A program made the position numbers and the translations under genes. Shown in pieces: positions 3,460 to 55,016 of a stretch of 64,000 bases of DNA; position 1 is the stretch's first letter; each line of letters begins with the position of its first letter. Origin of the DNA: Erodium maritimum. Lineage: Eukaryota > Streptophyta > Magnoliopsida > Geraniales > Geraniaceae. The stretch covers positions 47,848,039-47,912,038 of the forward strand of contig OY997593.1 in assembly GCA_963921825.1 (NCBI GenBank), in the 5' to 3' direction. Under the pieces are notes generated by a model. The model was not told where the DNA came from, did not search any database, and saw only the letters and a list, made by a program, of their open reading frames with translations.

Positions 3460-3497
3460 AAGATGGAGTTATCTCACTAATAATCTAATAACATAGG

Positions 3498-5044
3498 ATG
3501 GTAGTACGAGAACAGAAAAAGGCTAAGAGGGACCTTCTTCCCTTTGCCTCTTTCTGCTCAATCTTATTGACAAGTTACGATCGATACATGTCCATCGTTT
3601 CTCGTTCTACACCTAGAACTGCTAAGAGGGTTGTGTTGCAGAAGGGGCGAAATCGTGCTCCTATTCCGGCACATCCGAGACGAAGATCTGAGGTATCGGC
3701 TCAGACGATCGTGGAGGAAGGCGTGCGGTCCGATGCTAAGGTCGTCAACGCGGTACCGGTGAGTAAGAGTTCTGCCAAGACAAGGGCGGTTGATCCAGTT
3801 CAAGGAAAAGATCCGGTCGTTCCGTGTGAGTTATCTGGTGTTCATGATCAACGGAATGACGTACGTGATCAATGGAATCTGGCGACTTCAAAGGCCGACG
3901 ACCTTATCCAGGTAATACCGACTGAGATTTACATTCGAAACCTACCTTTTTCAACCTCTGAGGATTGGGTCAGAAGAACTTTTGGAGCTTTCGGCACCAT
4001 TACTGGATGCTCTGTTTTGAGGCGTTTCAACAGGGGAGAAAAGTTCGGTTTTGTGGCGTTTTCGTCCTCCGAAGCTGCTTCAGTGGCAGTGGAAACCTTT
4101 AATGGATATAAGATCAATGGTCATATACTCTTTTTAGCGTTGGCGCGTCGTCCGGCAGTTGGTCCGGCAGCTGCTCCGGCGCGGTCCTCTGGCTCAGAGC
4201 TTGGCATTAACAGCTCCCCTCTCTTTCCGCGAGATGTGATTTCGAAATCCCATGATTCGCGGGATTGTCTCGATCCAAAATTATTTGATTTGGATTCGGT
4301 AAATTCTGGTGAAGCAGCGCGTTCTCGTGGGGAAGAAGAGGGGAACGCGCCTCTTGATGTCGTTGTGGGCGTCAATCAGACCCAGACACGATTTCAAGCC
4401 CATGACCAGGTTATTCAAGCCCAAACGCATATGACCAAGGATGCAGGCCCGGTTTTTGTAGCTGGGCCTCAGGTCTGTTCTCAGGGAATGGAAGCTCAAT
4501 TTTTCGAAGCCAAGAAGCAGTTTTGTGGGGGGGGGGGGGGGGGGCGGGTGTTTCTCCTTTAGGATTGGGTACGGGAACTCGAGTTGTAGACTCGACTTCA
4601 AGTGAAGCTTGCGATCTCATTGGGGAACACCAGAGTAGTCCATGGAAGGAGGTTCTTTTGCAACCTCCGAAGACTCTCACTACGATTCGGAACGATGCGC
4701 AACCGAGAAAACGTGGTCGTCCCAAGAAGGATGAATCAAAGAAGATGGCTCCTCCAACCATTTATTATCAGACAAGGGCTAAAACCTCGGCTGATAACGG
4801 AGGCAGCTCGAATAGTTTCTTGATTGACATTGCTAAGAAGGATAGCTCAGGTAATTGGAGCTATAGCACGAAAGTCAGGAAAAAAGCCGCTAATTCTTTG
4901 GCAATCGTACCTCTAAATACTGTAGCCGCACCTCAGAGTCTTGAGGAGGTAGTTAAGAGTAGCATGGAAGAAAATTGCCCTGACTCGACTTTTCTAGGGA
5001 AGGGTTATTCCCGATTTCGGTTTGTAATCGTTTTTTGTGTCTGA
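3498..5044 (+). pseudogene. RRM and AT-hook ORF1 protein of half-LINE A, split at a G-tract
   Basis: The frame starting at 3498 (alternative Met at 3588) encodes a basic N-terminus and an RNA recognition motif at residues ~143-218, with RNP2 IYIRNL and RNP1 KFGFVAFS. It runs into an 18-G homopolymer at 4527-4544. Beyond it the coding continues in another frame to a stop at 5042-5044 and includes the AT-hook-like RKRGRPKK. A one- or two-base change in the G-tract would unite both parts into a protein of roughly 510 residues. RRM-bearing ORF1 proteins are known from a plant L1 subclade (BNR type), where they are thought to coat the RNA. The frame break could be real decay, replication slippage or a sequencing error in the homopolymer. 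Confidence 0.75.
4527..4544 (+). repeat. G18 homopolymer
   Basis: Eighteen consecutive G residues inside the ORF1 coding region; they break the reading frame. A similar G16 tract is at 35969-35984 and a G11 tract at 39994-40004, each within a LINE copy. Confidence 0.9.
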
Positions 5045-5245
5045 ATTCGGGTAGGACTTAGGCAAGCAGTTTTCTTGCCAATTCCTGCTTGGGTTTACTG
5101 TTTTTTGTTTTCTTTTAGCTTTGTGTAACTGTTCTGGTTTTGGGAAAATATCCTCTTTGAGGATTGTTTTCTCGCTCTGTTTTACTTTTGTGTAAAACTT
5201 ATGCTTAATAAATTTTTAGCTTATCAAAAAAAAGATGGAGTTATC

Positions 5246-8785: not shown

Positions 8786-8806
8786 GACTAGAAACTCTAA
8801 TCATAA

Positions 8807-12860: not shown

Positions 12861-12868
12861 GCATGAAA

Positions 12869-16810: not shown

Positions 16811-16813
16811 ATT

Positions 16814-34369: not shown

Positions 34370-37271
34370 CTCGAATCAGGAATCATAATAGTAATTGGGT
34401 GAAGTGGAGGAAGGGTTGGAGGCTACGGTTGAGGACTATTTTAACAGATTGTTTAAGGTAGGGGAGGGAGGTCCGGACTCGGCCAGTGATTTGATACCGA
34501 GCTCGATTTCGGTTGAGGACAATGATTAGTTGCTAAAATCGGTTGCCAGGAGGAGGTAATGAAGCCCTTTTCAGTATGCAGACTATGAAATCCTCGGGTC
34601 TGGATGACTTTAATCTGGTGCTTTTTCAACATTATTGGAGTTTGATGAGGCAGGAAGTAGGTGATGACACTAATCAAGTTTTCCAGGAAGGGAAATTACA
34701 GGATGATTTGAATGACACTAATCTAGTTCTTATTTCAAAAGTAAGAGCCCATAAAGAATTAGTGATTTTAGTCGTATTTCCCTTTGTAATGTATTATACA
34801 AGCTTGTAACAAGTGATTATAAACAGGATGAAAGGGTTGTTGCATAAGATAATCTCACCGACACAGAGTGCTTTCTTGACCAGTAGACTGATAACTGATA
34901 ATATTATTCTATCAGGAGAGGTTCTGCATTATCTCAGAAGACGGATTAATGGTACTCATGGTTTGATGGCAATGAATGCCAACATGAGTAAAGCTTATGA
35001 TTGGGTGGAATGAGATTATTTGGAGCGGGTAATACGCATGATGGGATTCGTAGAAAAATGGATGGTTCTTATTATGACATGCGTCCGATCAGCTCGGCTC
35101 TAGGTGGAGGCAGAGAGACACATGATAGGTCCATTGATGTCAGATAGGGGAATTAGACAGGGCGATCCGTTGTCTCCGTATTTGTTCATTATTTGTGCAG
35201 ATGGCTTATCTCGTTTGATAGAGAGAAGTGAAGTAGACCTCAAGACTCAGGGGTGCAAAATAGCTCGTAATGCTCCATCTATATCGCACCTGTTTTTTTG
35301 CGGATGATAGTTTTTTTCTTTTCCAGAGTTAGAGTAGAGGATGCTATGGAAGGGAAATTACTGTTTGAGAGGTATGAGAAGGCCTCAAGGCAGAAATTTA
35401 ACCTAGACAAATCGTCAATTACATTCAGTCCGAACACTTTGGAGGTAGTGAGATACAAGATCATGGAAAATCTGTTAATGAAAGAGGTGGTGGATCTGGG
35501 TTTGTATTTGGGTCTCCCACCCACTTTGGAGAGAAGTAACTACAATTCATTTATGTTTGTCAAGGACCGTATCGTGAATAAATTGAAAAGCTGGGATGAA
35601 TTATTACTTAGTAAGCAAAGGAAGGAAGTCCTCCTGAAAGCAGTTTTACAAGCTTTTCCTACTTACACTATGAGAGTTCATAAAATCCATAACATGTTGA
35701 TCTAGGAAAACGAGATACTGATGAATAAGTATTGCTGTAGTCATGACGCCAAAACGGGGAAAGGGCTCAAGTGAAAAAGCTGGGATAAATAATGCAGGCA
35801 TAAGTTGTAGGGTGGACTGTGTTTTAAACATCTTCAGGACTTTAATGTTGCAATGTTTTCGAATCAGGGATGAAGGATACTAACCAAACCGAATAATCTT
35901 GTAACGCAGACTTTGAAAGCGAATTACTACCCAGAAGTGAGTTTTTTGCAAGCTGGGACGAAACATAAGGGGGGGGGGGGGGGGTATTTGGTTCAGCATA
36001 CTGTTGGGGAAAAATTTCATCAAACAAGGAGTCCGGGGTACGGGAGTATTGGATGTTCCTTGGCTTCCTACGGAATCGAAAGTTGTAGAGGGACAATTTA
36101 TGGGCGGTTTGTATGATTGTGTAAGTAAGTACATTGATGATGCTCAAAGGTGGGCCAGGGGAAAAATAGAGGAGTATTTTGAGAGTCAGACTGCCTTGGC
36201 CATTCTAGCATTACCATTTTCGGCAATCCTTATTGATGACGGGGATCTCGAAATGGTGTTTTTAGGGTCCGTGAAGCTTAAAGATTCATTTAGAGGAAGA
36301 ATGAGAGGTGGAAGGAACAAGATCGGGACTTGTTTGAGAGGAGATTATGGGTGTTGGAGGTCCCCCCAACAATTAAACATCATGCGTGGCAAATTTTGAC
36401 GAGATCATTACCAACGAATTGTAACATGTACTCCCTATTTGCTCCGATTAGTGTAGATTGCAAATGGTGTGGTCGGCCGGCGTCGAGAGTGACATCTTAT
36501 TCCATTGCCTGGGTATGGACCGACTCTGGGAAAGATTGAGGCTGGTGGTATTGGGGAATAATGTGGATCCGAAAGGGTGGTTGAAGAATTGTTGGAATTT
36601 GGGGAAACAAGGGCTGATCGAGTAGGTAGTTGGGATCTGGTGGGAGATTTGGAGAGCTCGAAATGCAGTGTGTGGAGGTAGGAGGTGGTTATGGAAGAGG
36701 TGGTTGGGAGGCTTTTCTGAAATGTTGATCCATGATTCGAAATAATCCCAGCCAAGCACTTTAGGGAGAAAGGGGGCGAGTTCGACATTGGATGAAGCCG
36801 GACCTGGGAAAATTCAAAATAAATGTTGATAGAGCGGCTTTGGGCTTGGAAAGTGGAGGAAGGGGGATGACGTGCCGTGGTGAGACAGGCTGGGCCATAA
36901 ATGCTTGTTGCATTGTTTTACCAGGGAAACAGAATGCAGAGGTTATTGAGTTGATAAATATCAACGAAGCTCTATCTTGGATATATGAGGAAGATTGGTT
37001 GGAGGGTTCGATTGAATCTAATTGTCTAAGTGCAGTGGAGACCATTAATGGGGAAGAGATGGTATTGTCCATGATGGATCTGATAGTTGTGGAGAACAGA
37101 ACTAGGTTGAAAGCATGGTTGAGTTTCAGGTTAAATTCTATTTGTAAAAAAGATAATAGGATAGATCATTGCTTAGCCCGTAATGCTTGTGATTGGTATA
37201 CTGTGGATTGGCAGTTCATGAAGATCCCTCACGTTCTTCGTGAACTGTTGTCCAATAATATTTTGAATTAA
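34370..37271 (+). pseudogene. Decayed LINE ORF2 (RT to RNase H)
   Basis: Several frames on the plus strand together trace an L1-type ORF2. They are a segment before RT (SGLDDFNLVLFQHYW), RT pieces (QSAFLTSRLITDNI, MSKAYDWVE, RGIRQGDPLSPYLF and a FADD remnant at 35298-35308), the downstream thumb region to about 35700, then a diverged zinc-binding part. An RVT_3-type RNase H follows (36792-37271; FKINVDRAAL, AEVIELININEAL, ESNCLSAVETI). There are many stops and frameshifts and a G16 tract at 35969. The apurinic endonuclease domain and element ends were not found. An old insertion. Confidence 0.8.
35969..35984 (+). repeat. G16 homopolymer
   Basis: Sixteen consecutive G residues within the old LINE copy; compare G18 at 4527 and G11 at 39994. 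Confidence 0.9.
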
Positions 37272-37655
37272 TACAACTTTGCAATTCAAAAATGAAAATT
37301 TATATTTTTTGTTTTTCAATTATTAAGTTTTAAAATTTATATTTTTAGAAGTGAATCATTGTTTTAAAATAAATTTATAAAGTATAAAAAAGACAAATTC
37401 ATAATATAAGATGAAGGTTATAAACTGCAAAAAAAAAGTATATAAATTTTTCTTGTTGCAATTATCCCCAAAATTAAGTCGATAAATCTTTCGATCTTAT
37501 GATGGCACATGCCTTGAAAATTTGGAATCTACATTTCCTGGTAGCTATTCTTCTCTCAAGTAGTGTGACAATGACTACAATGTTAACAGCCCAACACTGT
37601 GGATTAGGGAAGATATTAATTTATATAAATATAATTTGAGGTGTATGATCAAGAT

Positions 37656-37739
37656 GTCAGGATGGCCGAGTGGTCTAAGGCGCCAGACTCAAGTTCTGGT
37701 CCTCTAACGAGGGCGTGGGTTCAAACCCCACTTCTGACA
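37656..37739 (+). tRNA. tRNA-Leu(CAA)
   Basis: An 84-nt cloverleaf of class II type. The 7-bp acceptor stem pairs GTCAGGA with TTCTGAC, with discriminator A at 37739. The anticodon loop CTCAAGT gives anticodon CAA; a long variable arm (CCTCTAACGAGGG) is typical of tRNA-Leu. Internal pol III promoters are TGGCCGAGTGG (A box) and GGTTCAAACCC (B box), and a TTTT terminator follows at about 37743. No intron is present, as is usual for plant nuclear tRNA-Leu genes. It sits in AT-rich sequence between a LINE relic and the thaumatin-like gene. Confidence 0.97.
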
Positions 37740-38341
37740 ATATTTTGAAGTATTTTTGTTCTTATCAGTGTATGATCCACTCTTTTCTGAGGGATGACGG
37801 ATGAGAGAAAAGGGTAAGGAAGCCGCAGAAATATGTCTGGATTTCAATTTAGAGGATCATAGCCTCTTTATGAATTTGCAATTGCACCTCAAAGGAACAC
37901 TGTGTCGTTGGTCTCATCTTGGCCGAGGTTACATCACATATTGAGGCAATCATAGACCAAACCCTAAATAATTAGTGAATATATAATTAAGTTTTGTTGG
38001 GAAATCCAAAATAATTGTCACTTTAAATTTAAACCCCACACTGATATGCACTGTTATCAGCTAAAAAAGTATTTAATCTCATTCAATTTTCTAATCACAA
38101 AAAGGTGGCGGATACATCAATACTACCACCACCAACGGTAATTTCTAAAAAAATATATAGTATATTAAAAAAAAATGAGTAGAGCTAAACTAAACTACAT
38201 AATTAAAACTAATCATTGATGGTGTGAAGCACACCACATCCTCAACCACAACATTCTGTTGCCACCAAGTGGACGGTTGAACCTTCCCCATCCTGACTCG
38301 ACTCCTCGTCAGCAACGACCAAACCTACCTAACTGGGCCCT
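37740..38341. other. Intergenic region after tRNA-Leu
   Basis: AT-rich; nothing recognised except the probable 3' untranslated region of the thaumatin-like gene near 38200-38341 on the minus strand. Confidence 0.5.
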
Positions 38342-39361
38342 CTACAGCTGCCACAACCCCCATATCGCCAATCCGACGGTGATCATGCCGTGTGATCTCA
38401 ACGCGGACGATGATGATTCGCTCTGGTCCAACGCACCTTCGTACACCATGCCGCCGTTGATTGTCGGTGGGCTCCACCGAGTGTCTTCGTTTTGCGTTGA
38501 TTTTTGGCTGCAACATAAACGTAACGGTCAGATTTTGTTGCCAGAGTAGGAAAAGAGAAAATTACCCCCATCCCAAGAAGTATCAACAATAATAGGTTGA
38601 AGGGCTTTTCAGTAAATTTACCTGGTGTTGGGAGAGGGGCAGAAGGTGATAGTGTAATCCGCGTCAGTACAGGTGAAGGTGCTGGTCTTGTCGTCGTAGG
38701 CGTAGCTGTAGGCGCTTGGGCACGCCGTCTTGAAGGCCTCCGAGTACTGCGACGGCTTACACGTGTCCGGAGATCCGTAGGCGCCGCTGCAGCAGTACTG
38801 CGGCTGCTGGAAGGCGTCGCACGCGCTCCTGCAAGCCACCCCATCGCCGTCTCCGCTCATAACCTTGAGCTCCGACGGGCACGAGTCGTTCAAGTCCACC
38901 ACGCATCCCGTCTTGTTGCAGTTCTGCCCCGACCCTCCCTGCGGCGCCACCAGCATCGGCAGGTTGTAGCCGTCGACCAGGCTGACGTCGAAGAAGTCCA
39001 TCCCGCCGGATCCGTCGAGAGTGAACTCGGCGAGCGTGGCCGGCGGGAGGGCGCCATTGCCGTCGCACTCGACCTTCCCGGAGGCGCAGTCGCCGGTGAG
39101 GCAGGAGAATTTGCCGGCGGAGTCCAGGGAGCATTTGGAACGGCCCCAGAAGCGGCCTCCCCAGGAGGCGGGGGCGGATATGGACTGGGACTTACCCGTC
39201 GGGAGGACGAATCCGGTGGTGGGAAGCGGCGGGACTCCGGCGTTGGTGAGGATTCCCGGCCAGACGGTGTAGTCGCATTTGTTGACGAAAGTGAAGGTCG
39301 TAGATTGAGATGCTGATATCAGTAAAGCGAAAAACGAAAACCAGATGCCCAGATGCGCCAT
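38342..39361 (-). CDS. Thaumatin-like protein (PR-5 family) with GPI-anchor exon
   Basis: Two exons, 39361-38622 and 38507-38342, joined by a GT-AG intron (donor AG|GTAAAT, acceptor TTGCAG|C); 906 bp, 301 residues. Exon 1 encodes a signal peptide (MAHLGIWFSFFALLISASQS) and a thaumatin domain with all 16 conserved cysteines, plus acidic-cleft residues around TLAEFTLDG and MDFFDVSLVDG. Read alone it would stop at TAA 38618, three residues beyond the last Cys region. Exon 2 adds a Ser/Thr-rich stretch, an ALDQSESSSSA segment and a hydrophobic end (VGLAIWGLW), which looks like a GPI-anchor signal. The product is likely a cell-wall or plasma-membrane-bound TLP. PR-5 proteins bind beta-1,3-glucans and many are defence-related; the specific role here is unknown. 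The start at 39361 was chosen over an upstream Met (39424) because it begins the signal peptide. Confidence 0.92.
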
Positions 39362-39479
39362 TGGAGACTTCAAATAAAGTAAGAATATGATGGAGTATTC
39401 TGATAGCAAAAATCTGGTGAACAAGAATATGAAATCGGAGGAGTAGACGTAAATTGTGAAATGGGAACCATAGGGCCGA

Positions 39480-39487
39480 TATTTATA
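39480..39487 (-). promoter_or_regulatory. TATA box of the thaumatin-like gene
   Basis: The minus strand reads TATAAATA about 120 bp upstream of the ATG at 39361. The remaining upstream sequence to the LINE at 39729 contains one TTGAC W-box core (near 39590, minus strand) and no other clear element. Confidence 0.6.
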
Positions 39488-39728
39488 GAGTAAAGTGAAT
39501 ACAAAGAAGTTGAGATATTGTAGCCAACGTGGCCGCTGTGGTGGACCCTCTTTGATTTAGTGGCTGCTCAGCAGTTTCTAGTCATGCTGTCAATCAGTCC
39601 CATCTTCTATTTTTTTTTTCATTTATTCGACTATAATTACCTTATTATATTTTTCAATCTCATTTTCAAAATATATGATGATGATTAGATAAAAAAAATA
39701 AAACGTGGTAGTAATTAATCCTACAAGT

Positions 39729-42700
39729 ATCGTCTCTAAATAATATAGCCGGCCCTAAGAGATGAGCGAGGGGATCGCTTGATCAGCGGCGCGTGAGAGG
39801 GACAGCGGCGACGGGTGTTCTCCGACTGGTTGACGGGAGTGAGTACGGTACGGGGAAGGTACGATCTAGTCTCCTTTCACGTTTTTCTGGTTTTCCTTTT
39901 GATTGCTGGAGTGGGGGAATCAGTTGTTCTCGTCCGGGGGCGAGTTTTTTGAGCGAGTTGCCCCACGGTGGTGTTTTCGACGCCGACGTGGTTGGGGGGG
40001 GGGGTGTTGACGGAGGGGCATCGGACGTCCAGAGCTGGTGTGACGGTGGTCGGATCTGGGACGTCGTCCGGGACTGCTGTTCTGTAGGAGGACTACGGCT
40101 GGTCGCTGAGGTTGAGTGAGGTTGAAGGTCAGTGGGTATCGCCAGTGTTTGGAGGGGAGCTTTGGCGACTAACACCGGGATAGGGACTGTGGTTGCTATC
40201 CTCGGGTGTGTTGTGCTTCTGGTGAGAAGAGTAGGACGAGACCAGAGAAGAGGAGTGGTGGGCACTCACCGGGACGCCTGTTTAGTACGGTACGAGGGGC
40301 TCTTTCGTCGTGCAACAGGTGGTTTTTGGGGATGAAGTTCCTATCCTGGAACTGTAATGGGTTGGGCAAGCTAGCGACGATGGAGTATCTGAAGGGGGTG
40401 ATATGTCGTAGGAAGCCGCATGTGATTTTCCTTAGTGAGACGGTGGCTCGGAAGGGGGAAGTAGATATCCTGAAGCTGAAAACGGGATTCCCGGGTGGGT
40501 GTGAAGTTCTGGCGGTGGGGCAAAAAGGGGGACTGATACTGCTATGGACAGCGGAGATGAAGGTTACGCCGTACCCTAGTGAGGATCGGTTTATTGATGT
40601 GGAAATTGAAGGGCCGAACGGAGATGGCTTCCGTTTTACGGGCGTGTATGGGGAGGCGAACAGAGAACTACGGTGGCAGACGTGGGATATGATTCGGTCC
40701 CTCGGTGCGAGGACACGAGCCTCGAGGAAATGGCTCTTGATGGGAGACTTCAATGGCATTCTGCGGGATAAGGAGAAACGGGGTGGCCGGGGGTATCCGG
40801 AGCGACTGATTTCGGGTTTCCGGACTGCATGAGGGATGTAGGGGTCTATGACGTCCCAATCCAAGGGTACAGTTTCACGTGGCATAGCGGGAGTGAACCA
40901 GAGACACGAATGGCAGTCTAGTTGGATAGGGCTCTGATGTCTCGAGAATTGAGGTCGATGTGGCCGGAGGCTCATCTGGCCAATTTGGGTATTTCAACAT
41001 CGGATCACTTACCCATTCTGATTGACTCGGAGAGAAGAGTGGATCATGTGGGGTCGCGTCATTTCCGTTTTGAGAATATCTGGGCAGAGGATCTGGAGTG
41101 TGGCTTGTTGATTCCGTCTAGTTGGGGTGCGCCGGGGGACCGGGAGGTCGGGAGAAAGATTCAGGAGACAGGCTTGGCGCTAGATACCTGGGGTAAGGAG
41201 GTGTATAATGCACTAGCCCGGAAGATTGCACGTTATGAGAAGGACATGCTGTGGCTGAACGGTAAGGAGGACCGATCGAGTATTCGGCGTCGGAGAGCTT
41301 TGCAGAAATTATATGTCAAAGCCTTGGAGCAAAAAGGGGACTTTTGGAGACAGCGGGCCAAGCAGCACTGGCTCACAGATAGTGATCAGAACACCAAGTT
41401 TTTCCAAGCCTCGGCGTCACAGCGGAAAAACATAAACAGGGTATCTGAGTTACGGGATTGGGATGGTAACGTCCTTACCTGGGATTCCAGATTGGGGGAC
41501 CATATCCTGGATTTCCATAAGGTCTTATCCCGGAGGACGAGGGGGGACGAAGTAAACTTCCCGAGATTCCGTCAGCAGGTGACGGAGGAGCAGAACAGGG
41601 CACTTATGGGGGAGGTGACGTCGGAAGAAGTCCGAGACGCGACTTTCTCCATGGGCCCGAATAAATCGCCAGGGCCGGACGGTCTCAACCCTTTCTTCTA
41701 CCAAAAGTACTGGGGACAGTCGGGGAGGATGTCACCGGGTGGGTGAGACGGATCTTTGCAGGGGAGGACATCCCACGGGAGTTGAATAGGACTACGTTGG
41801 TTCTGATTCCGAAGGTGGAGTTTCCAATGTCACTCAAAGATCTCCGACCTATAACATTGTGTAATGTGGTGTTCAAGGTGGTGTCCAAAGTGGCTGCAAA
41901 TAGACTTAAGGGCTTATTGGGTGGAATTATCTCTGACACCCAGGGAGCGTTCGTCCCGGGCAGATCTATACAGGATAATATCATCCTATCGTATGAGACA
42001 CTGCACTACCTATGGAACAAGAGACAGGGTAAAGAAGGCTGGGTGGCGCTGAAGCTGGATATGAGCAAAGCCTATGACAGGGTGGAGTGGGGCTTCTTGT
42101 GGGACATTATGAGAGGTTTTGGCTTGGGCGAGGAATGGATATCTCTGGTCCGTCGGTGCACGTACTCAGTTACGTATAACATTGTGGCTGGGGGTCAGCA
42201 GGCGGGGTTTGTTCAGCCTTAAAGGGGGATAAGGCAGGGGGACCCGCTTTCCCCCTATTTGTTCCTTTTCTGTATGGAGGGATTTTCTCGCTTGCTACAG
42301 GGAGCAGAGGGCACAGGGGATATCCATGGAGTCAGGATAGCTAATGGAGCTCCGGCGTTGACCCACATGTTCTTTGCGGATGACTGCTATGTGTATTGTA
42401 AGGCAGTTCCAGAAGAGATGACAAAAGTGCGGACCTACTTGGGAATGTTTGAGGAGGCTTCAGGGCAGGTGGTGAATCAAGCTAAGTCGTCTCTTTTTTT
42501 CAGCCACAACACTCTAGAGCATCGACGTCTGAGTGGTGTGCAGATATTGGGAATACCTGAGTTAGATACCCCGTCCACCTACTTGGGTATACCGAACATG
42601 ATGGGACGGAGCTGGAAGCAGAGTCTGCAGTATGTCATGGATAAGGTCCTCAGGAGGATCAGGAGGTGGGATGGTAAATTGCTCAATGGGGCAGGTAAAT

Positions 42701-44419
42701 AAGTGCTCGCAAAATCAGTGTTACAAGCAATCCCCACTTATACGATGAGTTTAATGCGGATTCCTAAGGGGATGCTGGAGAAGATGAATGTGGCCCTCGC
42801 TAGGTTCTGGTGGAAATCGGCGGGCCCGGACGGAAAAGGAGTGATCTGGAAATCCTGGGCAAAAATGTCACGGCCAAAGGAGGAAGGGGGTCTGGGTTTT
42901 AAGAATCTATACGAATTCAACTCGGCCCTTTTAGGGAAGCAGTTGTGGAAACTAGTCACGGAGGAATCGAGTTTGGTGGCTAAAGTCCTCAAGGCTAAGT
43001 ATTACCCGAGGACTTCGGTTTTGGAGGCAGTTCGTAGAAAAAATAAAAGTTATATCTGGCAGAGCTTATTATCGGTATAGGAGCTGATTCGCAGCGGGGC
43101 GCGAAGGTCTTTCGGGGCAGGTACGGAAACTTCTATACTTGGACATCCCTGGCTGACAGGAGTGGGAGCAAGGGTGCAGTCATCAGGACCTGGGCTTAAG
43201 GGAAAGTTAGTGTCGGAGTTAATGAAGCCACACGAGAGGGCTTGGGATGAGGAGAAGATCCGCTCCCTGGTTGGAGGGGAGGATCAACAGGCGATATTGG
43301 CGGTCCCGAATAGTCGGACGACTGCCCGAGACTCTTGGTACTAGGCGGGGGACTACTTGGGCCAGTACACGATGAAATCGACGTACGACATGAGCCAACT
43401 GGACCAGGCCTCTGTCCAGGCACACCCTGAAATCTGGCCGGCAATCTGGAATCTAGAAGTGATGCCAAAGATCAAATCGTTTCTATGGCGTACGTGTTCG
43501 GGCTGCCTGCCGGTGGCGGAGAACCTAAGACGCCGACATGTGGACATGGCGGCGACATGCCCGGTATGCCTGGGAGGAGATGAGTCAACTTTTCATCTGC
43601 TGGTCAACTGCCTAGTGGCAGCTGAATGTTGGGCGAAATCGGGTCTGCAACTACCTCAAGGGACCCAGACGATAACAGAGTGGTTGCTACTAATGCTTAG
43701 TATCAACTCTTCGACGAAGGGAGGACTGATTGAGTGTCTCCTATGGGAGGTGTGGAAGGCACGAAACAAAGTAGTCTGGGAGAGTACAGCACAACCAGCA
43801 GCCGGTATTTTCCAGACAGCTTTCCATCTTCAATTAGGATGGTTGGAAGCACGGAGAAGGAAGCTACAGGCCCAGGCTAGCCCGCGACATACCCAGGCTC
43901 GAGCAGCGGAGGTATGGGAACGTCCTAGTCGGGGTTCTTGGGCGATCAACACTGACGGGGCTCTATTCGCAGCAGCAGACAAAGTGGGAACAGGTTGGAT
44001 ATGTAGAGACGACATGGGGCATCTCAGGGGAGTCGGTCTACATCGTTCCACGGGGCCCAGAACCCTGGGCTAGTGGAAGCGTTTGCGATTCGGGAAGCGC
44101 TGATGTGGCTCCAACAATACCCGCTCCAAAGGGCGGTGGTTCGAAGTGATTGTAAGATCATATTGGATATGATCAAACGAGGTGGTGGGCTGCCTTCACC
44201 TCTAGGGACGATCGTTACAGATTGTTTTTCCCTTTTATCTAAACTCGAGTGCGTGCAGCTCGAATTTGTAAAGCGGACAGCGAACAAAGCAGCTCACTGG
44301 CTTGCCATGACGGCTTGTTCTAACCCTGTCTGGAATTGGCAAGGGGGTCATGTCCCCGAGCCTCCTTCAACATATCATTGTTGCCGAAAATTAATACAAT
44401 AGCATTTCTCTCAAAAAAA
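39729..44419 (+). mobile_element. L1-type LINE, 4.7 kb, with 12-bp target duplication
   Basis: Flanked by AATCCTACAAGT at 39717-39728 and 44420-44431, and ending in a poly(A) tract (44413-44421) after TTTCTCTC. The insertion lies 368 bp upstream of the thaumatin-like start codon, between that gene's TATA region and any distal regulatory sequence. It has about 600 bp of GC-rich leader with a G11 tract (39994-40004), and a single long ORF2 with endonuclease, RT, zinc-binding and RNase H domains. An ORF1 is not evident, so it may be 5'-truncated. Confidence 0.88.
40332..44402 (+). pseudogene. LINE ORF2: endonuclease, RT, zf-RVT, RNase H
   Basis: Starts at ATG 40332 with the apurinic-like endonuclease signature KFLSWNCNGLG, then LSETVA and MGDFNGIL. 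A frameshift occurs near 40820 and a stop at 40919-40921, then SDHLPIL closes the endonuclease. RT follows (GPNKSPGPDGLNPFFYQKYWG, PKVEFPMSLKDLRPITLCN, LDMSKAYDRVEW, RGIRQGDPLSPYLF, FFADDCYVY) with a frameshift near 41712. In-frame stops lie at 42220, 42700, 43078 and 43342. The zf-RVT domain (IKSFLWRTCSGCLPV, CPVCLGGDESTFHLLVNC) precedes an RVT_3 RNase H that is frameshifted at 44071 and ends at 44402. Few lesions over 4 kb suggest moderate age. This product is dead, but related intact copies could mobilise other elements. Confidence 0.9.
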
Positions 44420-45551
44420 AATCCTACAAGTTCTAGGTATTACTGAGGGTGGTTGTTGACGGTAGTCTATGTTGGTTTTCTCTAAGCTTCATGGTGGTTA
44501 ATTATAAGTTTTAGACCTGATTAGTTTTTATCTTTACAACTCTTTGTTGGGTTTAGCGATTACTACAATGCATTTTTTTTGATAAAATATGTTTTTATTA
44601 AAAACTTTTGCAAAGAGCAAAAGTTTATAAAAAAGGTAATCCAAAAAGGATGCCTTAATTAAAAGAAACCTACAAAAAGAAAAAAGAAGAAGAAGAAAAC
44701 CACCTGAACAAGTAGGCAAACCACAACACAATGAAATCCAAAACCCCCAGCTTATCATAGAACGCAAACCCCTCCAAACAATCCCTGCAACAGTCACCAT
44801 AATGAAACCTTCAAAGAGCAAAAATAAGAACCACACAACGCTTTACGATCTTCAATATATCAATCCCAACTTCACAAAAAACTACCCAAATTAACCTCTC
44901 ATAAGGGAGAGGAGTTGAACTCCCCCTCCCCCATCATCAATCACTACCTATCCCGAAGAAAAAAGCTTTTTTCTGTATCTTTTATAAAGGCCCATGTATG
45001 TTTCTGGGACTCTCGAATCTGGCTGCGAGATCTCAAATCCGGATGTGCCTGAACATTGAAGGTCTTCATTTTGCTGCGACCTACCCGAGACTGAGAAAAA
45101 TAAGCCATCGTTGCTTGCGAATCAAGAAAAAGGTAAACCCTTAGATCAACGAGGGCTTGAACCTCAAAAGAGACCGATTTAAGATAGTCAGGGACTATGG
45201 AACCCAAGAAAGTATCCTCATGATCACTACTGCAGATAAGTACTTGGCTGACGGATTGGATCCGTCACCTAAGAGGACGTATCCGTCGGCCAAGTTCTTA
45301 GGTGACGGATGCATCCTTCGGTAGAGTAACAACTTTAGCCACAGATCCAATCCGTCACCCAAGGTTGTCACTCTAGCTACGGATCCAATCCATCAGCCAA
45401 GTGTATCCGTCACCCAAGTGTAATAATAGATTAATTAAAAAAATCTATCTAACCAAAACTGCCCGACCCAAGACCCGCCTACACGCTCGACCCAACCCGC
45501 CACATGGGTGTCCAGACCCGCCCGACCCACCACGTCTCTACCAACCCGCGC

Positions 45552-45622
45552 ACGCCATGAGGTTCGAACCTCTGACCTCAGTGTGCACAAAGGTTGTGCC
45601 TTTTACCAACTCAACTAAGGAG
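45552..45622 (-). pseudogene. tRNA-like sequence / SINE head
   Basis: The minus strand reads TAGTTGAGTTGGTA (A-box-like) and, about 35 nt later, GGTTCGAACC (B box), in tRNA-like spacing. The acceptor stem does not pair, so it is a tRNA pseudogene or the head of a tRNA-derived SINE. Confidence 0.55.
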
Positions 45623-45805
45623 TTTTTGTGTTATATGAATGTTTAGAATATATATATACACTATTGAAGTTTTTCTTAAATTAAATAGCTTTATATAATT
45701 AAATTAAATAGCTTCTGTTATAAACGTACCTAGTACCTATTGTCAACTAATTATTTATAGCAAGTTGATTTTATCATGTGCGCTACATTGTTTATATTTA
45801 TATAA

Positions 45806-46225
45806 GGATAAATTACAAATATCTACCCTTAACTTATCACGTTTATCTGATACATATCCCTAACTTTTTTTAACTGATACCTACCCAGATGTTTAGTTAT
45901 ATGACAAATAGACCCTTTTTGTGTTAAATTTTTTCTAAAATGACGAAAACACCCTTAGTGATTTTTTGAAATCTTTTTTGATAAATAAAACTGAAGTGAT
46001 TTAGTAAGTAAATATATATATAACAAAAGTTATTTTTTAAATAAGTTTTTAAAAATAATTATTGAAGTGTGGTTGAGGGCATTTTCGTCATTTTAGAAAA
46101 AAGTTAACAGAAAAATGGGCTATTTGTCATATAACTACATATCGGGATAGGTATCAGTTAAAAAAATTTGGGGGTAGGTATCAAATAAACGTGACAAGTT
46201 AGGGGTAGGTATTAGTAATTTACCC
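45806..46225. mobile_element. Mutator-type MITE with 9-bp target duplication (420 bp)
   Basis: Long imperfect terminal inverted repeats of over 100 bp start GGATAAATTAC on the left and GGGTAAATTAC (inverted) on the right. They are flanked by the perfect 9-bp duplication TTTATATAA at 45797-45805 and 46226-46234. Nine-base duplications with long inverted repeats indicate a Mutator-like MITE. It is nested inside the CACTA element. Confidence 0.88.
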
Positions 46226-46447
46226 TTTATATAATACTAAGACAAGGATAACTCAAATTTTCTTGATCGTTTTCTCGATTCGAAGTACAAAATATTGTTT
46301 TTTTTTTGTGATCAAATACATTATATAACTTTTTTTACAACAATATCAATCTAATGATTATAAACTTGTGAATTATGGACACCGGTCGCTCAATGCCGGG
46401 TTTTAATTTGATGCCCAAGTTCAAAGATAAAATTAAAATAGTGGAAA

Positions 46448-46450
<3 letters not shown>

Positions 46451-46480
<30 letters not shown>
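46451..46480. repeat. (AT)n microsatellite
   Basis: An uninterrupted AT dinucleotide run of about 30 bp within the CACTA element. Confidence 0.95.
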
Positions 46481-46482
<2 letters not shown>

Positions 46483-46928
46483 AATGATGGGTATATGCAT
46501 CCGTCGATGAAAAAGCTGGCCGATGGATATATGCATCCGTCGGCCAGCAGAAGTTGACTTACATTGACCAAAACCTCAAAACCCGTCATCTTTCCCGACT
46601 ATCGTAGTATTGATAATTGAACGATATAAGTACTTAGCATGCCTCATATACAACATAAGATCGTATAGTCTCATACATATCACATACAAAAAATGAACGA
46701 GACAACGTCATACGTTATACTACCGTAAGGCTAAATATGTTCATGCACATAGTGGAATTGACGATTTCAATCAATACGTGTCGGTCTCTCGCATATTATA
46801 TAATCAAGACCGCTCATCTCGTATGTACTATGCAAACTAGTATACGTATGTAAAAAAAAACTATCATCGAACGGTTAATTCATCTTGAATATTGTGGTCA
46901 ATTTTTTTTTTGTAAAATAGTCAACCCA

Positions 46929-47092
46929 CTTAGGTGACGGATAGAGCATGCGTGGCTAAAGTTTTCTCACTTGGCTGACGGATCCAGCATGCATGGCTAA
47001 ACTTTTCTCACTTGGGTGACGGATCCAGCATGCGTGGCTAAACTTTTCTCACTTGGGTGACAGATCCAGCATGCGTGGCTAAAGTTTTCTCA
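46929..47092. repeat. 4 x 41-bp subterminal repeats of the CACTA element
   Basis: Four units starting CTTRGSTGACRGAT and containing GCATGCRTGGCTAAA, each 41 bp. They are followed by more diverged GACGGAT motifs up to the right end. Confidence 0.85.
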
Positions 47093-47767
47093 CTTGGCTG
47101 ACGGATAGTAGTTACCTTATCTACGAATATTGTATCTGTCGGCCAGGTTTGTCACTTGGCTGACGGATACAGGATCCGTGACCTAAGTTGTTCCACTTGG
47201 CTGACGGATTGCTGTATCCGTGGCTAGAGTGCGAAAACCTAGGTGACGGATCCATTTTATCCGTCACTCAAGTGGATTTCTGCAGTAGTGAATCCACGTA
47301 CTCTTGATTCGAAATCGGAGTTCTATCCGCAATAGGATTGAAATGTTGCGAACTAGAGCGTTGAGAATAATCTGATCCATCCTCAGGCACAATCATCTCT
47401 TGAATCCCACGCATATAGGGCATGGCCAAACATGCAGAAATTACCGAGTCTCGGGCCAACAAAAAAGAAACAATTCTTCTAGTTGAAGAGGAAGAGTCTC
47501 TTGTTCACGATGAAGGGGACTATGAGGATGGTGCTCCTCCGATTTAGGAAGAAAAACATGAAGATGATTGTTAAGCATATGAAGAAAATGTTCCAATGAA
47601 AATGACATCTTTTTGTAATTCCAGATGATTTAATACTGGAGTTTTCTAATATAGTTGAGATTTGGTTTATATAATTTTGTTCCTTTATTTTTTCGTTATT
47701 GTCATTGTCTTATTGAATAAACCATTTACAATTTCGATACTAATTTATCAAAGTAAGAAATTTTGGG

Positions 47768-49930
47768 TTTTTTTTTTTGATAAACGAGGGGAAATTTTCA
47801 TTATACTATAAAGGGGAGTACAATGAAAAGCAGAATACGAAGTCAAATTGACTGATTCTGAAAAAACATTAACGATAAAAAAACACAAAAATACTGAAGC
47901 TTGCCAACATGAGATAACACCAAACTTCAATTAAAACAGAACTTATCTGCTGAAACAACGAAACCGGTTTCCACTGTCACGCCATACCACAAAATAACGA
48001 ACCCGAGTGCCAGTCCACAAGTGAAGAACCCAACGTTCAAACTGAAGCTCGTAGATGATAGAAAGACAAAGATTGCAACTACAAGAACACCAACCGCAAA
48101 AACTCATATGCATCTCTATCACCCACACGAAAACAAGCCTAATTGTAAGGTCAAACGAGAAGGAGCTGAACAAAAGGCTTCCAGATCCTCATCTTCACAA
48201 ATGTCTTCATACAAATCATCCTCATCCACTTCCAAGCCCACACGTTCATGAATTTCTAAGTCCAGGTTATTAAACTGTTCGATCGCAGACTCATCTAATT
48301 TCAATGCTTTGATGCCAACTTGTTTCACATAATCCCAGGTACCTTGACGAGAAGCTCTTTCTTTACCTGTCAACTGAAATCCCGGTGTCTGGTAGGAAAC
48401 TGAAGGCTTAGACTTTCTCAGACTTGAAACTTTTTGATTCAATACTTGTGGAGCACGCAAGGCTGATTCCAAATGAGTGTCATAAGTAGAATGAATTATA
48501 GGGGATGGAGTTATACCTACTCCCAAAGGATATGTGGAATTAGAGTTTGTCACTTTAGAACATGACTTGTCTGCGGAAAACGCCACTTTAGAGTATGTCT
48601 TATCCTCCGGAGCTGTCTGATCTTCTTGACTAGCCCAGTCCTTATCCGATGATGTATCCAGCAGGCTTACAGTCGGAAAAAACTTCTCCGGAACTGTTGT
48701 GATGTCCTCTCCTGAAACAGAAATTGGGAAACTAGAGGATCCCAATACAAAGTTCAAGTTCAACGAAGTAATTTTAGAATTCCTATGTACCAAGATGAAC
48801 GCTTTATCAAAAGAAGCCGACTCAGGGTTCGAATCACAGATGTAATACAAAACAGTACCCAGAGACTTTCCAATTTTTAAAATTGAATCTTCAGTTCTCC
48901 CTTAGAAATGGATACCCTCCACCACAGTCCACTGAAAAAAACCTCCCACAGTGACCAAAACCCCTGAATTACTTATCAACTCAAACCAAGGTTTCAAACG
49001 TGCCCAATTTTCCTCTTCTAAAGTATCCCCGAGAGAAGGATTTATAACTGTAAGAAGAAAAATGCGATGCCCAAAAGAGCGCAGGACCACATCAACTAAG
49101 CCAATAGACTTGAGAATCGCTTTGTAGTGAGAAAAGTTCCAGTTGTTATGTGCCAAAACCAATACACCTGAAAGAGCCATATCTCTGGCTCCCGCCACAG
49201 AAGAACCAAGAACATTGTGTGGTTTTGGAACCCACTTCTGCGTGACCTTTGGAGGAGAATTCCGAGGTTTGGAAACTGTTGGTCTAGCGAAGTCTACCAG
49301 CAATTTGTAACCATCCTGCATTGTTCCATTATAAGCCTCAATAGTTTCTTGAGCCAGACCTGATTTCATCATGATAAAACCAAAGAATTTACCAGTGCGA
49401 TTAGATCTCTTACACACGAAACATGACTCAACACCTTCAGAGCCTAAAATATTTTTAAGCCAAGACTCATATCTTCCCGGAGGAATATTACAGATGAACA
49501 ATTTCTTTCCTTCCACATATGCTTTTGGAAAGGGAGCCTCGGAAATGATTTCCTCCTCAAGGTTCAAAGATGTTGAAGATTTTTTGGAATCCTCAAAAAT
49601 ATGAACCATATAAGAGACTCTCCCTGCCTGAGGCCAACGCTCCGAACTCAAGGTTTTATTGACAAGATCATCTTGTAAATGACATTTCTCTCCAGTAGCT
49701 TTGACGGTGGAAAAATCTCTGCTCAGAAAATTTATAGAGCTTCCACTCGGAATAACCACAACAGATTGAGGGCGAACCTTCTTCGCCACTGAAGCAATTT
49801 CATTCATCGGAGCCTTTCCTTTCCTACTGTCCCTCTTCATACTCTTCTTCTGAGCCGATCTCAGGACCCACAAAAGAGAATCCTTGAATAGAATAGAAAC
49901 TAACCAAACAGTAGAAAAAACAGAGAACAA
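47768..49930 (-). mobile_element. ORF1-only LINE-type element (half-LINE B)
   Basis: Minus-strand element whose 3' end is an 11-nt A-tract preceded by TTATC (plus-strand T-tract 47768-47778). It carries one long RRM-type ORF1 (49840-48119) and about 340 bp of 3' untranslated sequence. No endonuclease or RT is present between the ORF and the poly(A). The 5' end lies beyond 49930; a GC-richer leader may reach about 50400, where a ~27-bp direct repeat (50133-50188) occurs. A target duplication was not found. Confidence 0.75.
48119..49840 (-). pseudogene. RRM ORF1 protein of half-LINE B, one nonsense codon
   Basis: A single frame of 574 codons from ATG 49840 (an upstream in-frame Met is at 49930) to the stop at 48119, interrupted only by TAA at 48902-48904 (codon 313). 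The RRM spans residues ~112-187 with RNP2 LFICNI and RNP1 KFFGFIMM. A following globular region (VLVLAHNNWNFSHYKAIL to TVVEGIHF) resembles the DUF4283-like domain found after the RRM in plant L1 ORF1 proteins. The C-terminus is Ser/Thr-rich and ends in an acidic DEDDLYEDICEDEDLEAF segment. Having one stop in over 1.7 kb and no frameshift suggests recent activity or selection on ORF1. Confidence 0.8.
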
Positions 49931-50833
49931 TGACTTGATCGGAGTATTGGCCGACTTAAGATCCGGCTACAAACCCACACTTAACAGTACACCTGACCTG
50001 ATGTCCCAAAACACACAGTCACGGAGGTTTGGCTCATACCTGGTGGTGTTGAAAACCTGGCGACGACTCCTGCAGACTATGAACAGAATTGTTGGCGAGG
50101 ATAAATCCGAATTACGAATTAGAAGGAACGATGGAACACGACCTGTGATACGTAACGATGAAGCACGACCTGTGATACGTAACCGGTGAAGACGCTCCGA
50201 AGGAACTCTGATTCGTTCCGTGATGGCGGCGTTGCAACGTATTTCTCCCGGCCCTATGTCTGATTCGTATATGTCTGATATCGCTAGACAGAGATGACAG
50301 GGCAGGCCGGAGAAAAAACCGATATGAGCCAGAGAAGAAGGTCGGGACGAGCCAGAGACGTGACGACATGATGGGTAGCAGACACGACCTAGGCACTTCC
50401 TAGCTTTCGCCGCGTGAAGCCCTGTTTTGGCTTCCTTGTAAACACGGACTCTTCAGAAAGATGTATAACTACTGAGGAGGATTAATGGAATCTCTCAGCA
50501 AAATAGGTAGCTGCTGCAGATTTGATCTCATCAAGATCAGTCAAGAGGAAACCAGCATCAAATATCTGAGAAATTCTCTTTTTTGTTACACTATTAAGTG
50601 ACAGTTTCAGATTTGAAATGAATTAATGTTGTAGATCAAGGCGACGATTCGGTAACAATCTAGATAAAAGGCTTTCGTGTAGCATCTTGTTTATTATAGA
50701 GAGAGAGAGAGACTCTGACCTCTCTCTAGAAACCCTACCTCTCTTCTTTATAATCCGCTGCCACTCCTAACCTTAACCTCCACTAACACTCTCCTGGTCA
50801 CCACGGCCATAGAGGATGCCGGCGGCGGTCTCC
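49931..50833. other. Leader of half-LINE B and AT/GA-rich spacer
   Basis: Contains the probable minus-strand leader of element B, a direct repeat of the ACGACCTGTGATACGTAAC motif (50139-50182), and a (GA)n microsatellite at 50699-50714. No gene seen. Confidence 0.4.
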
Positions 50834-51076
50834 CTATCCTATTCCTCCTCCCCTCAACCCGTTTTCCTCTCCGTTTCTCTCCGGCGACGGTCTCGAGCCA
50901 ATTAACCATGGCGTACCCCGGATCAACGTATCCTGACCATCCTCAATATACTTTCGTGGCCTTAAAAGCTCTTGCGTGGAAAATATACTTTCCCATGTAA
51001 AGCTCGGGTTGGGCCCAATTCTTGCCTGCAAGAAAGTAGTAGTTGAGAAATATCTAGCTTTAAGAAATCGAGCCAT
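50834..51076 (-). pseudogene. LINE ORF2 fragment (region between RT and zf-RVT)
   Basis: The minus strand encodes MARFLKARYFSTTTFLQA, then SFTWESIFSTQELL, and shortly after GTPWL. This is the conserved 'KARYFP..SFL.A..G..PSYTWRSI' connector that follows RT in plant L1 ORF2 proteins. The fragment is isolated and grades into unrelated GC-rich sequence, so it is a relic. Confidence 0.75.
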
Positions 51077-52364: not shown

Positions 52365-55016
52365 TTTTTTTGATCAACAAAGCAATATAATAAAATGCTC
52401 CTCTTTTCAAAATGAAAAAAGAGAGACAAGGAGAAGGACTCTTGAGAACACAAAACGACAAATACTTCTTTAGAAGAGGACAACATAAACACTAACAAAA
52501 AAACAAACCAAGACCAAACAACCTAAAACACAGAAAAGAAACCAGGAACAAAACAACCATAAGAGATAAACAAAAACATAAGACAACCCTGAACCAACCC
52601 TAAAAAAACAGGAGCCAAAAACCAACCCGACAACGAGCCACCAGACTTGAACCAGAGCAAAATCAACAACAGAAACTCTCAACCCACTCCTCTAGCTAAA
52701 TCAGAATCAGAAACACCCTCCAAATCCTCAAATTCATCATCAGAACCAACTTCTAAATCAACACCCACATTAAAATCACATTCCATAAATTGTAACTGCT
52801 CAATTACCACCTTATTAGAAACAAAAGCTTGGAGACCTGTAACTTTACCAAATTGCCAGGCCTTTTCAGCTTCCGAGATACTTTTATTGAAAATATTCTT
52901 ATCAACATTCTTTTTAGAAACAACTTCCTTCCCCCAATTTCAATCTAGAGCTTGTATCATAGGTGCGAGTGAATATAAATTTCTTTGAGTTTTTCTTACA
53001 TCCATGAAGTCAGAAATTTCATCAACTTGCGCTTGCACAACCTTTTTACAAGCCAAGTCAAAACCATATTGGACCTCCTTATCAGAAACCATACCATCTA
53101 AACCTTTACTACCCTCTAAAACCAGGGCTGAAAAAGAGTTGCCATCTCTCATAAACTCACTAGAAACACGGTTCGGAGGCTCAAGGAGGTTGTTGGTGAC
53201 CTGTTGCAAATCCCCAACTCCATCCTTACTAAAGTGAACATGATCATCTCCAGAACCCAACACTGCTTCACTATCAAGAAAGTCCATCTTCCCGACCTCT
53301 ATGCCCAAGAAAGTATCTCTTTCAACACCACGATGAGAGATAAAGTCTTCGGAATCCCTAGTAGAGTTCACCCCCTCCTTAGAAACGTTCCCGATGCTTG
53401 AGAGTGCAACCCACAACCAACATTCTCCGAGCTTTTGAAGCTAAACTATCCTCCACATCAAGAGAAGACGTCTCACCACTCACAACAAAATCTGGAACAA
53501 TTTGAGAATCCACTGGACATAATAAGACAGAAAAAGTCTCCTCTCCAACTTCATTATTTGCTTCCTTCACGTTCAAGACATCAAGACTTGATTAACAGTG
53601 AATCAATATGTAAGCAACTTCCAAATTTCTTCTCGCTAAAGTTTGAGGATGAGTAAACACTAGAGTACCAACTTCTTTACCACACACTTCAAATGATTCA
53701 TCACACCAGCCTTGGAAAGGGAGACCCTGAATAACGAACCAAATGAACATGCCACCTTTTGCAAGAAGCTTTTGTTTATTTGGAACTACCGTGCACCAAT
53801 TTCTTAGCCAAACCAATTGTGTCTCTCCGATTCCACCCTAAAATCCACATCAGGGCAAAAAATACCAAAGACGGTTTCCAAAAGATCGCACATATATCTC
53901 AGAAACGCCTTGAGCTAAAATCTCCCTCATCAAAGTATCCACTAACGAATTATTATGAACCACTGCAAGTTGACAAGATTGACTCTCAAATTTGAAGGCT
54001 GGGACTTCAGCTCCCCGACAAAGATCGACTTATCTATCAATTGGAGAAGCTTGATTCTCAACATGTTCACCATTACTCCCGTTCATCCTATCCAACTTGT
54101 CTTCCCTCCTACCCAGTTGTTGAGTAGAACTGCTAGAAATGGGAACTTTCTTCCAAGCTTTTGCAACAAATGACACAAAACCCTTTAAAGTAGTCCCATT
54201 AAAATTTTGATTTGCCATTTGAATAGAAGATTGTAAATCGAATAGGATGAAAGCAAACGATCTCCCTTTAGCATTTGGTCTCCATGGATCTTGAACACAA
54301 AGAACCTTTCCAACAATAGAGAAAACATCTTCTAACCATTTTGGAGAAGACTGTTGCGGAAGGTTACGAACAAAAATCCAGAACTCCATATCCTTGACGG
54401 TTGTCCTACCACTCAAAGAGTTCTCAAACGGAATAATGTTTATTTTCATCTTTTTTCCAGCGAGGATAGTAGCTTTCATAGAACCAAATTTGTCTGAGGT
54501 ATCACCCCTGTCAACTTAACATGGAGCTCGAGAAGAAAAAAGAAACGGTACTCCACCAAGTATATAACCTTCCTTATCCTTCAGAGCTTTTCTGGCTCCT
54601 TCAAAACCAGGGGTGGGTACCCCGACGAGGAAGAAGACTCCATAGAACTCACGAGGCCTTCACACCCCGCACAAAACCCTGGATGACTGAATAGAAATGA
54701 ATGGTACCTCCACACCCACTCGAACCCAGAAAAAAAGAGACAAACCAATCAAAAGTAAAGACAAGAACCTTAATTAGGTAATCAATCTTCTGCGAAAAAT
54801 ACCATTCTGGTTAGAGACCGTAACCAAATCCCAGCGACAATTGAACAAAGCCTTGTCATCCCCTATAGAAACTGGCCTCGAAGAGGTCAGATTCGAGGCG
54901 GCTTGAGTCGGAATCGCAGAGGGGCGGGTCTGCAGGGACGATGTCTGATCAGAAGGAACTCCCAGCAATTCGGGAACTCTGAGAAGTATGCCTTCTCCTT
55001 CGTCCTTATTACCCAA
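52365..55016 (-). mobile_element. ORF1-only LINE-type element (half-LINE C), degraded
   Basis: Minus-strand element with a short A-tract preceded by TGATC (plus-strand T-tract 52365-52371). Coding pieces follow the same order as half-LINE B: RRM (54479-54030), a DUF4283-like piece (53816-53592), then acidic C-terminal pieces (53576-52940). There is no RT or endonuclease. Frameshifts separate the pieces. The 5' end is near 55016, where a short open frame precedes the RRM. No clear target duplication was found. Confidence 0.7.
52940..54479 (-). pseudogene. RRM ORF1 of half-LINE C, frameshifted
   Basis: The first piece (54479-54030) has an RRM with RNP2 FWIFVRNL and RNP1 GRSFAFILF. The next pieces include GGMFIWFVIQGLPFQGW (the aromatic-rich pattern of DUF4283-type ORF1 proteins) and an acidic, Ser/Asp/Glu-rich C-terminal region. 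At least three frame changes are needed to connect them. Domain order and end structure match half-LINE B, but decay is more advanced. Confidence 0.7.

Follow-up and report, generated by a model that had tools for sequence, protein, structure and literature searches.

Three elements with an RRM-type ORF1 and no ORF2 in a 64-kb window of Erodium maritimum, each probably from a separate family of propagated half-LINEs

A stretch of 64,000 nucleotides from Erodium maritimum (Geraniaceae; assembly GCA_963921825.1, contig OY997593.1, positions 47,848,039 to 47,912,038 of the forward strand), here called the window, contains three elements that look like long interspersed nuclear elements (LINEs) reduced to the first of their two open reading frames (ORFs). 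These are el1 (3474-5231, plus strand), el2 (a minus-strand element from 47768) and el3 (a minus-strand element from 52365). A preliminary description had assigned to each of them an ORF1 with an RNA-recognition motif (RRM), a 3' untranslated region (UTR) and a poly(A) tail, without endonuclease (EN) or reverse transcriptase (RT). This anatomy was confirmed in all three, whereby each element ends in [TG]ATC-(A)n after a T-rich 3' UTR. The complete element is el1, with the following parts:

3460-3473 (+): left target-site duplication, AAGATGGAGTTATC, a perfect 14-bp repeat
3474-5231 (+): el1, ORF1-only element of 1758 bp, complete, flanked by the perfect duplication, with a 3' end that recurs in relatives
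3492-4562 (+): el1 ORF1, first frame, 356 aa, with at least 115 matches in the genome
3927-4124 (+): RRM of el1 (Pfam RRM_1, E 7.5e-16)
4406-5044 (+): el1 ORF1, second frame past the G run, with the C-terminal region of the family, GRPKK...YQT...W.(Y/F).K
5045-5225 (+): 3' UTR, T-rich and hairpin-rich (fold z -3.35), with the end TAATAAATTTTTAGCTTATC
5226-5231 (+): poly(A), whose A run extends 2 bases into the duplication
5232-5245 (+): right target-site duplication, a perfect 14-bp copy of AAGATGGAGTTATC

The ORF1 of el1 switches its frame at a run of 18 G (4527-4544), and el1-type ORF1s have the C-terminus SNRFLCLNP.R. The other two elements are built in the same order on the minus strand:

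47768-50440 (-): el2, ORF1-only element whose 5' end was placed by eye and is approximate
48119-49966 (-): el2 ORF1 frame of 615 codons, with one in-frame TAA at 48902-48904
49301-49501 (-): RRM of el2, homologous to that of el3 (RRM_1 E 0.0024 alone, below the cut-off)
47779-48118 (-): 3' UTR of el2 (fold z -3.66), its final 107 bp or so 78% identical to those of a full-length LINE, L048
47768-47778 (-): poly(A) of el2
52365-55020 (-): el3, an old ORF1-only element; its 5' end, likewise placed by eye, is approximate
54177-54377 (-): RRM of el3 (RRM_1 E 2.1e-9 alone)
53601-53744 (-): partial DUF4283 of el3 (E 8.6e-6; 25.9 bits, slightly under the cut-off of 27.2)
52372-52678 (-): 3' UTR of el3, aligned up to the tail in two relatives, L050 and L052
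52365-52371 (-): poly(A) of el3

The T content of the 3' UTR exceeds that of ORF1 in each case (48% versus 26% in el1, 44% versus 31% in el2, 53% versus 33% in el3). No credible EN, RT or zf-RVT was found in the three 3' UTRs (top matches E 0.015 over 11 residues in el1 and E 0.060 over 62 residues in el3), and a complete ORF2 from this clade gave no match to any of them at E≤1. Homology between the proteins of el2 and el3 covers the RRM and the next region (E 1.3e-14 to 6.8e-16) and is found again at the C-terminus; ORF1 of el3 is broken by several stops and frameshifts.

Further copies were searched in the source genome of E. maritimum (763 Mb). For el1, the 115 or more ORF1 matches were reduced by five second pieces, so that 110 were used for counts. 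The el1-family sample consists of 42 loci, whereby 28 were picked by ORF1 (the 20 best and eight deeper ones at 38-53% identity) and 14 by the tail (six from 3' UTR matches, and the first eight listed exact tail matches, for which the sequence examined covers about 470 bp ahead of the tail). The el1 3' end is present in 25 of the 28 ORF1-picked relatives (BLASTN), and no ORF2 match separates ORF1 from the tail in any of the 42 loci. One ORF1-only structure is kept among copies down to 38-53% identity. Among the EN matches considered throughout, which are the best 150 of 5,315 candidates, none lies within 3.5 kb downstream of the 110 ORF1 places and none within 6 kb upstream of the 40 listed matches to the 200-bp el1 3' end, 27 of which have an el1-type ORF1 within 2 kb upstream. 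ORF2 matches near four loci lie upstream of ORF1 (L009), in antisense (L019, L020) or in the flank (L024), and L029 is interrupted by two other insertions. L024 sits within the ORF2 of another LINE; when the element and one duplication are removed, 80 residues read open across the join, and thus the ORF1-only unit was inserted here as a whole.

Own perfect duplications of 15-17 bp were found in seven of 17 scanned relatives (L010, L019, L020, L021, L022, L024, L025), the scan covering 17 of the first 20. Together with el1, these copies have duplications of 14-17 bp with 1,529-1,893 bp between them, and the intact duplications suggest fairly recent insertions. The copies of the el1 subfamily have a common 5' end that begins at about CGAGAAC of el1, which in six copies with duplications is preceded by non-homologous leaders of 17-42 bases (3474-3506 in el1; near position 1190 in L010 and L019-L022). 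When at most two mismatches are allowed, a 26-base pattern of the el1 tail occurs at 1,177 places in the genome, compared to nine for the reversed control. Since seven of the first eight listed places adjoin the C-terminus of an el1-type ORF1 (L063 keeps just 72 bp of the 3' UTR), the family may comprise on the order of a thousand copies, as extrapolated from these eight.

The ORF1 of this family is under purifying selection. Compared to el1, the ratio of nonsynonymous to synonymous substitutions (dN/dS) is 0.39 over 11 deep relatives and 0.54 over nine shallow ones, versus 1.12-1.18 (deep) and 0.78-0.83 (shallow) in the other reading frames and 0.70-0.95 (deep) and 0.66-1.06 (shallow) when substitutions are placed at random. 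In the simplest reading, selection acted when the family was already ORF1-only, because its other copies share the ORF2-less structure. A family that has spread with a conserved ORF1 therefore probably depends on the borrowed enzymes of complete elements.

A different picture was obtained for el2, which has relatives at several stages of ORF2 loss. Of 73 listed matches to its ORF1, three were removed as pieces, and 59 of the remaining 70 reach residue 595. A listed EN lies within 300 bp downstream in none of the 17 el2-type ORF1s at ≥56% identity (el2 included; of the other 16, seven were examined as DNA), in one of nine at 52-55% and in 17 of 33 below 52%. The closest relative, L035 (89% identity), has the ORF1/3' UTR junction of el2 (682 bp at 93%), and L036-L039 carry about 75 additional bases at this junction. 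No ORF2 was detected at E≤0.05 in L035-L039 and L041 (L037 has a weak match, E 0.065). ORF2 remnants are present in L040 and L042 (some 66 residues close to the ORF2 C-terminus), in L043 (the first 57 residues), in L044 (the first 168) and in L045 and L046, which hold both ends and have lost the middle. L047 has an open ORF2 frame of 1,169 residues and an el2-type tail, without a full ORF1. L048, a relative at 50% identity, is a full-length RRM-LINE with ORF1, EN, RT and zf-RVT regions, a 15-bp duplication and the el2-type 3' end; its ORF1 is 44% identical to that of el2 over residues 25-614. The distance from the ORF1 end to the tail, measured in the 12 of 59 ORF1s with a listed tail, is 340-620 bp (n=9, el2 included), 3,810-3,812 bp (n=2) or 5,545 bp (n=1); the list held 100 of the 103 genome places of the el2-type tail pattern, for which the control gave none. 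Distances from EN to the tail, taken for 11 of the 150 EN matches chosen by eye, were not used. In a C-terminal tree, from which L038 was omitted and in which two of ten inner branches are strong, el2 groups with L035, L036, L037 and L039 (97/96), beside L048 (89/87). The ORF2 losses around el2 are thus graded deletions from complete RRM-LINEs, in agreement with the internal deletion and subsequent propagation proposed in the preliminary description. A structure prediction of the el2 RRM and the next region (mean pLDDT 36.8) was set aside. Just upstream of el2, at 50861-51076 (-), lies a piece of LINE ORF2 with 40% identity to the LINE at 42976-43161.

For el3, the five top-scoring relatives (49-66% identity) were sampled. 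Two of them, L050 and L052, align to el3 without a break up to the tail (72-73% over about 2.1 kb), and the match of L049, L051 and L053 ends short of the tail; none of the five loci, two of which reach the tail, contains an ORF2 match. Among 60 distant el3-type RRM places, chosen from 150 by open-frame length, four have an EN about 1.7 kb downstream.

Overall, el1, el2 and el3 are, with a probability of roughly 87%, each a member of a separate family of propagated half-LINEs. They are taken as propagated rather than as private deletions because their structures and 3' ends recur at other loci (the 25 of 28 el1 relatives, L035, and L050 and L052). If ordinary LINEs had suffered three separate private deletions without later propagation, this would fit the near absence of DNA similarity between the three elements and the lack of duplications at el2 and el3; given this recurrence and the perfect duplications that seven el1 relatives carry on their own, such an origin is hardly credible. 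The preliminary description had named a full ORF2 in every close relative as the finding that would speak for private deletions, and no such ORF2 was found in the samples for el1 (0 of 42), el3 (0 of 5) and, by listed EN, el2 (0 of 17). Its view of one non-autonomous lineage held with regard to propagation and failed with regard to unity, as the families differ; of the two histories it offered, several origins or an old lineage, both apply, with more than one history of ORF2 loss and at least one old lineage. Searches for ORF2-bearing relatives yielded L048 for el2 and none in the el1-family and el3-family samples. A common junction in a subfamily without a complete LINE is a pattern seen for el1 and not settled for el2.

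Regarding the mechanism, complete L1-type LINEs would provide in trans the ORF2 protein that copies the RNA of ORF1, T-rich 3' UTR and poly(A); its insertion would proceed by target-primed reverse transcription and leave the duplications of 14-17 bp. The parts of the elements fit a LINE parasite with an RNA-binding protein of its own and borrowed ORF2 protein, and of such a mobilisation in trans the sequences show the duplications and poly(A). The ORF1 protein is retained by selection, most likely for cis-binding of its own RNA into a competent particle, which is an economical answer to the question why ORF1 persists. By this account, el2 descends by ORF2 deletion from complete RRM-LINEs of the L048 type, and its likely helper would be a LINE of this type, which has the el2 3' end. 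A deletion origin may also apply to el1, which belongs to a large and old family, and to el3, from an old, decayed third one; el1 probably descends from a LINE and would have a helper.

Several observations weigh against this interpretation. Neither the 42 loci nor the 110 ORF1 places and 40 tails revealed an el1 relative with ORF2, and because of this its deletion origin is unproven. Three of the 28 ORF1-picked relatives (L011, L017, L023) have no tail match and also no ORF2 match in the stretch examined, and two of them (L017, L023) are among the 11 deep loci used for dN/dS. An EN missing from the best 150 of 5,315 candidates is weak evidence for any single locus. ORF2 of L048 is frameshifted, so that no intact helper was seen there, and many el1-family copies have stops or frameshifts, with many matched stretches free of any. 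The C-terminal profile match between el1 and el2 is weak. Finally, a search for target-site duplications gave no clear one for el2 or el3, and their 5' ends (by eye about 50440 and 55020) are therefore not fixed; of the coordinates given in the preliminary description, those of el1 were exact and the 3' ends of el2 and el3 correct, and the 5' ends at 49930 and 55016 share this uncertainty.

The lack of ORF2-bearing kin for el1 would be expected if its family had arisen from a host RRM gene, similar to that of a poly(A)-binding protein, which turned into a self-spreading coding retroposon. The RRM of el1 is indeed similarly close to RRMs of poly(A)-binding proteins as to those of el2 and el3, and profile comparison found no N-terminal homology between el1 and el2 in addition to the weak C-terminal match. 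However, its resemblance to the el2 and el3 RRMs (E about 1e-7), the T-rich type of its 3' UTR, its TATC-(A)n end and the colinear C-terminal motif YQT...GxW(Y/F)xK shared with el2 argue for a LINE, and we regard the host-gene origin as unlikely. It might also be that the family is dead debris and that selection on ORF1 was confined to complete ancestors. The stops in many copies and the higher shallow dN/dS of 0.54 would agree with this; against it stand the deep dN/dS of 0.39, with the ORF2-less 3' end seen in nine of the 11 loci, the intact duplications and the open ORF1 C-termini of the deep relatives L054-L061, which make this reading quite improbable. Very little likelihood is left for the view that splicing or early polyadenylation of complete LINE transcripts yields ORF1-only RNAs repeatedly, without a lineage of their own. 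The varying amount of missing ORF2 among el2-family copies would suit such by-products, but the el1-family structure is constant down to 38-53% identity with no complete source seen, and plain early polyadenylation within ORF2 is disfavoured because the 3' UTRs do not consist of ORF2 sequence.

The surroundings of the three half-LINE candidates in the window were also inspected. With a thaumatin gene and plant-type retrotransposons, its gene content is that of plant DNA. Ends of the type [TG]ATC-A6+ occur six times in the window, compared to a mean of 1.4 and a maximum of 4 in 60 resamplings, and four of the six lie behind T-rich DNA, namely those of el1, el2, el3 and a fourth element. Further features are:

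44573-44586 (-): fourth T-rich 3' end, TTTATC-(A)8, reaching upstream to about 45226 and perhaps to 47291-47420
45227-47290: CACTA-like DNA transposon (by eye) with ends CACTACTGCAG...CTGCAGTAGTG, repeated GTCACC/AAGT and an imperfect 3-bp duplication; splits the fourth element
39729-44419 (+): ORF2-bearing LINE of another clade (EN, RT, zf-RVT) with a perfect 12-bp duplication, AATCCTACAAGT, and no clear ORF1
34324-37289 (+): second ORF2-bearing LINE fragment (RVT_1 E 2.5e-11), whose 3' end resembles the LINE at 39729 (z 3.8)
55857-56709 (-): 5'-truncated LINE with zf-RVT, a T-rich 3' UTR and the end GCGCTTATT(A)8
56760-56940 (-): tandem GTGACGG-rich repeats next to this zf-RVT fragment, by eye
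55240-55600 (-): three repeats like tRNA-derived short interspersed nuclear elements (SINEs), by eye (AGTGGTAAG...GGTTCAAATCCC); ARAGORN and Rfam make no call
33084-33578 (+): HSP90 fragment (E 8.2e-51), possibly a retrocopy
37655-37740 (+): tRNA-Leu(CAA) gene
38618-39553 (-): thaumatin-like gene (E 5.5e-85)

The 96-aa open frame of the fourth element had no Pfam match above the cut-off. Its 3' end (fold z -3.54) folds about as strongly as those of el1 and el2, and those of el3 (-0.35) and the zf-RVT fragment (-0.70) fold like shuffles; a common 3' hairpin as a recognition signal is not claimed. A 15-bp match of the el1 3' UTR to the zf-RVT fragment at 55972 (z 2.7, equalled by 6 of 400 shuffles) was not used. 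In a protein-collection search, neither el2 nor the alignment A1 had a match, and el1 had four, covering 17-24% of the query, of which the two named ones are fungal; collections of prokaryotes and viruses gave no relatives.

Heitkam and Schmidt reportedly described in 2009 the BNR-type L1 LINEs of Beta vulgaris, with an RRM in ORF1. The RRM in ORF1 of el1-el3 (in el2 below the cut-off of Pfam) is a likeness to them, as is L048 with its RRM ORF1 and its ORF2 with EN, RT and zf-RVT; unlike BNR elements, el1-el3 have no ORF2 and thereby lack what defines an autonomous L1, an ORF2 with endonuclease and reverse transcriptase. By mode of action, el1-el3 would be elements of the kind of HAL1 or HeT-A. 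HAL1 of mammals is described as a multi-copy L1 derivative that encodes ORF1p alone and has several origins (PMC5753468). Like HAL1, the three elements keep ORF1, lack ORF2, carry a 3' UTR with poly(A) and were propagated. Going by that description, they differ by their occurrence in a plant, their RRM ORF1 (in el3 also with DUF4283), the presence of several families together, the partly deleted intermediates around el2 and the lack of ORF2-bearing kin for el1. HeT-A of Drosophila is presented as a non-LTR (long terminal repeat) element without transposition enzymes, with RT thought to be supplied by TART or TAHRE (PMC5537684). HeT-A inserts at telomeres, whereas the el1 family is dispersed with duplications, its matches being scattered along contigs without telomere-specific insertion. 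The poplar LINE Celine, according to its description (PMC11288735), has a DUF4283 ORF1, poly(A), duplications of 10-30 bp, a 189-bp 3' UTR and a centromeric location; it shares DUF4283 with ORF1 of el3 and is, in contrast, complete with ORF2. SIDEs such as Persaeus of Lepidoptera are reported as internally deleted non-LTR derivatives of about 300 bp that spread and have several origins, and short internally deleted non-LTR elements are called rare there, with examples from fruit flies, a mosquito and a trypanosome (PMC6740152); el1-el3 differ by retaining the whole ORF1. For plant L1 machinery, recognition of the RNA poly(A) tail is presumed in a review proposal (PMC3747384). The open literature searched, with the BNR, plant-subclade and HAL1 papers outside its scope, contained no report of plant half-LINEs, which is weak evidence.

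Whether the el1 family goes further than a by-product of deletion is, in our estimate, evenly balanced. It might be an old, obligately non-autonomous, protein-coding family, on the order of a thousand copies in size, with no RT-bearing member left in the genome (or ever present there). Such a family would maintain its RNA-binding protein by selection, depend entirely on the enzymes of other LINEs and be a plant equivalent of HeT-A with dispersed insertions.

The usual picture of a LINE parasite is a SINE, which carries no gene. An annotation that demands an RT domain would overlook elements such as el1-el3 or label them as host RRM genes. The loss of the polymerase together with the retention of the RNA-binding protein would indicate a LINE function that cannot be borrowed. 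In this plant genome, ORF1-only families occur side by side with a full-length RRM-LINE and with intermediates that have lost part of ORF2, and thus the need for ORF1 in cis, as well as the origin and persistence of half-LINEs, becomes testable.

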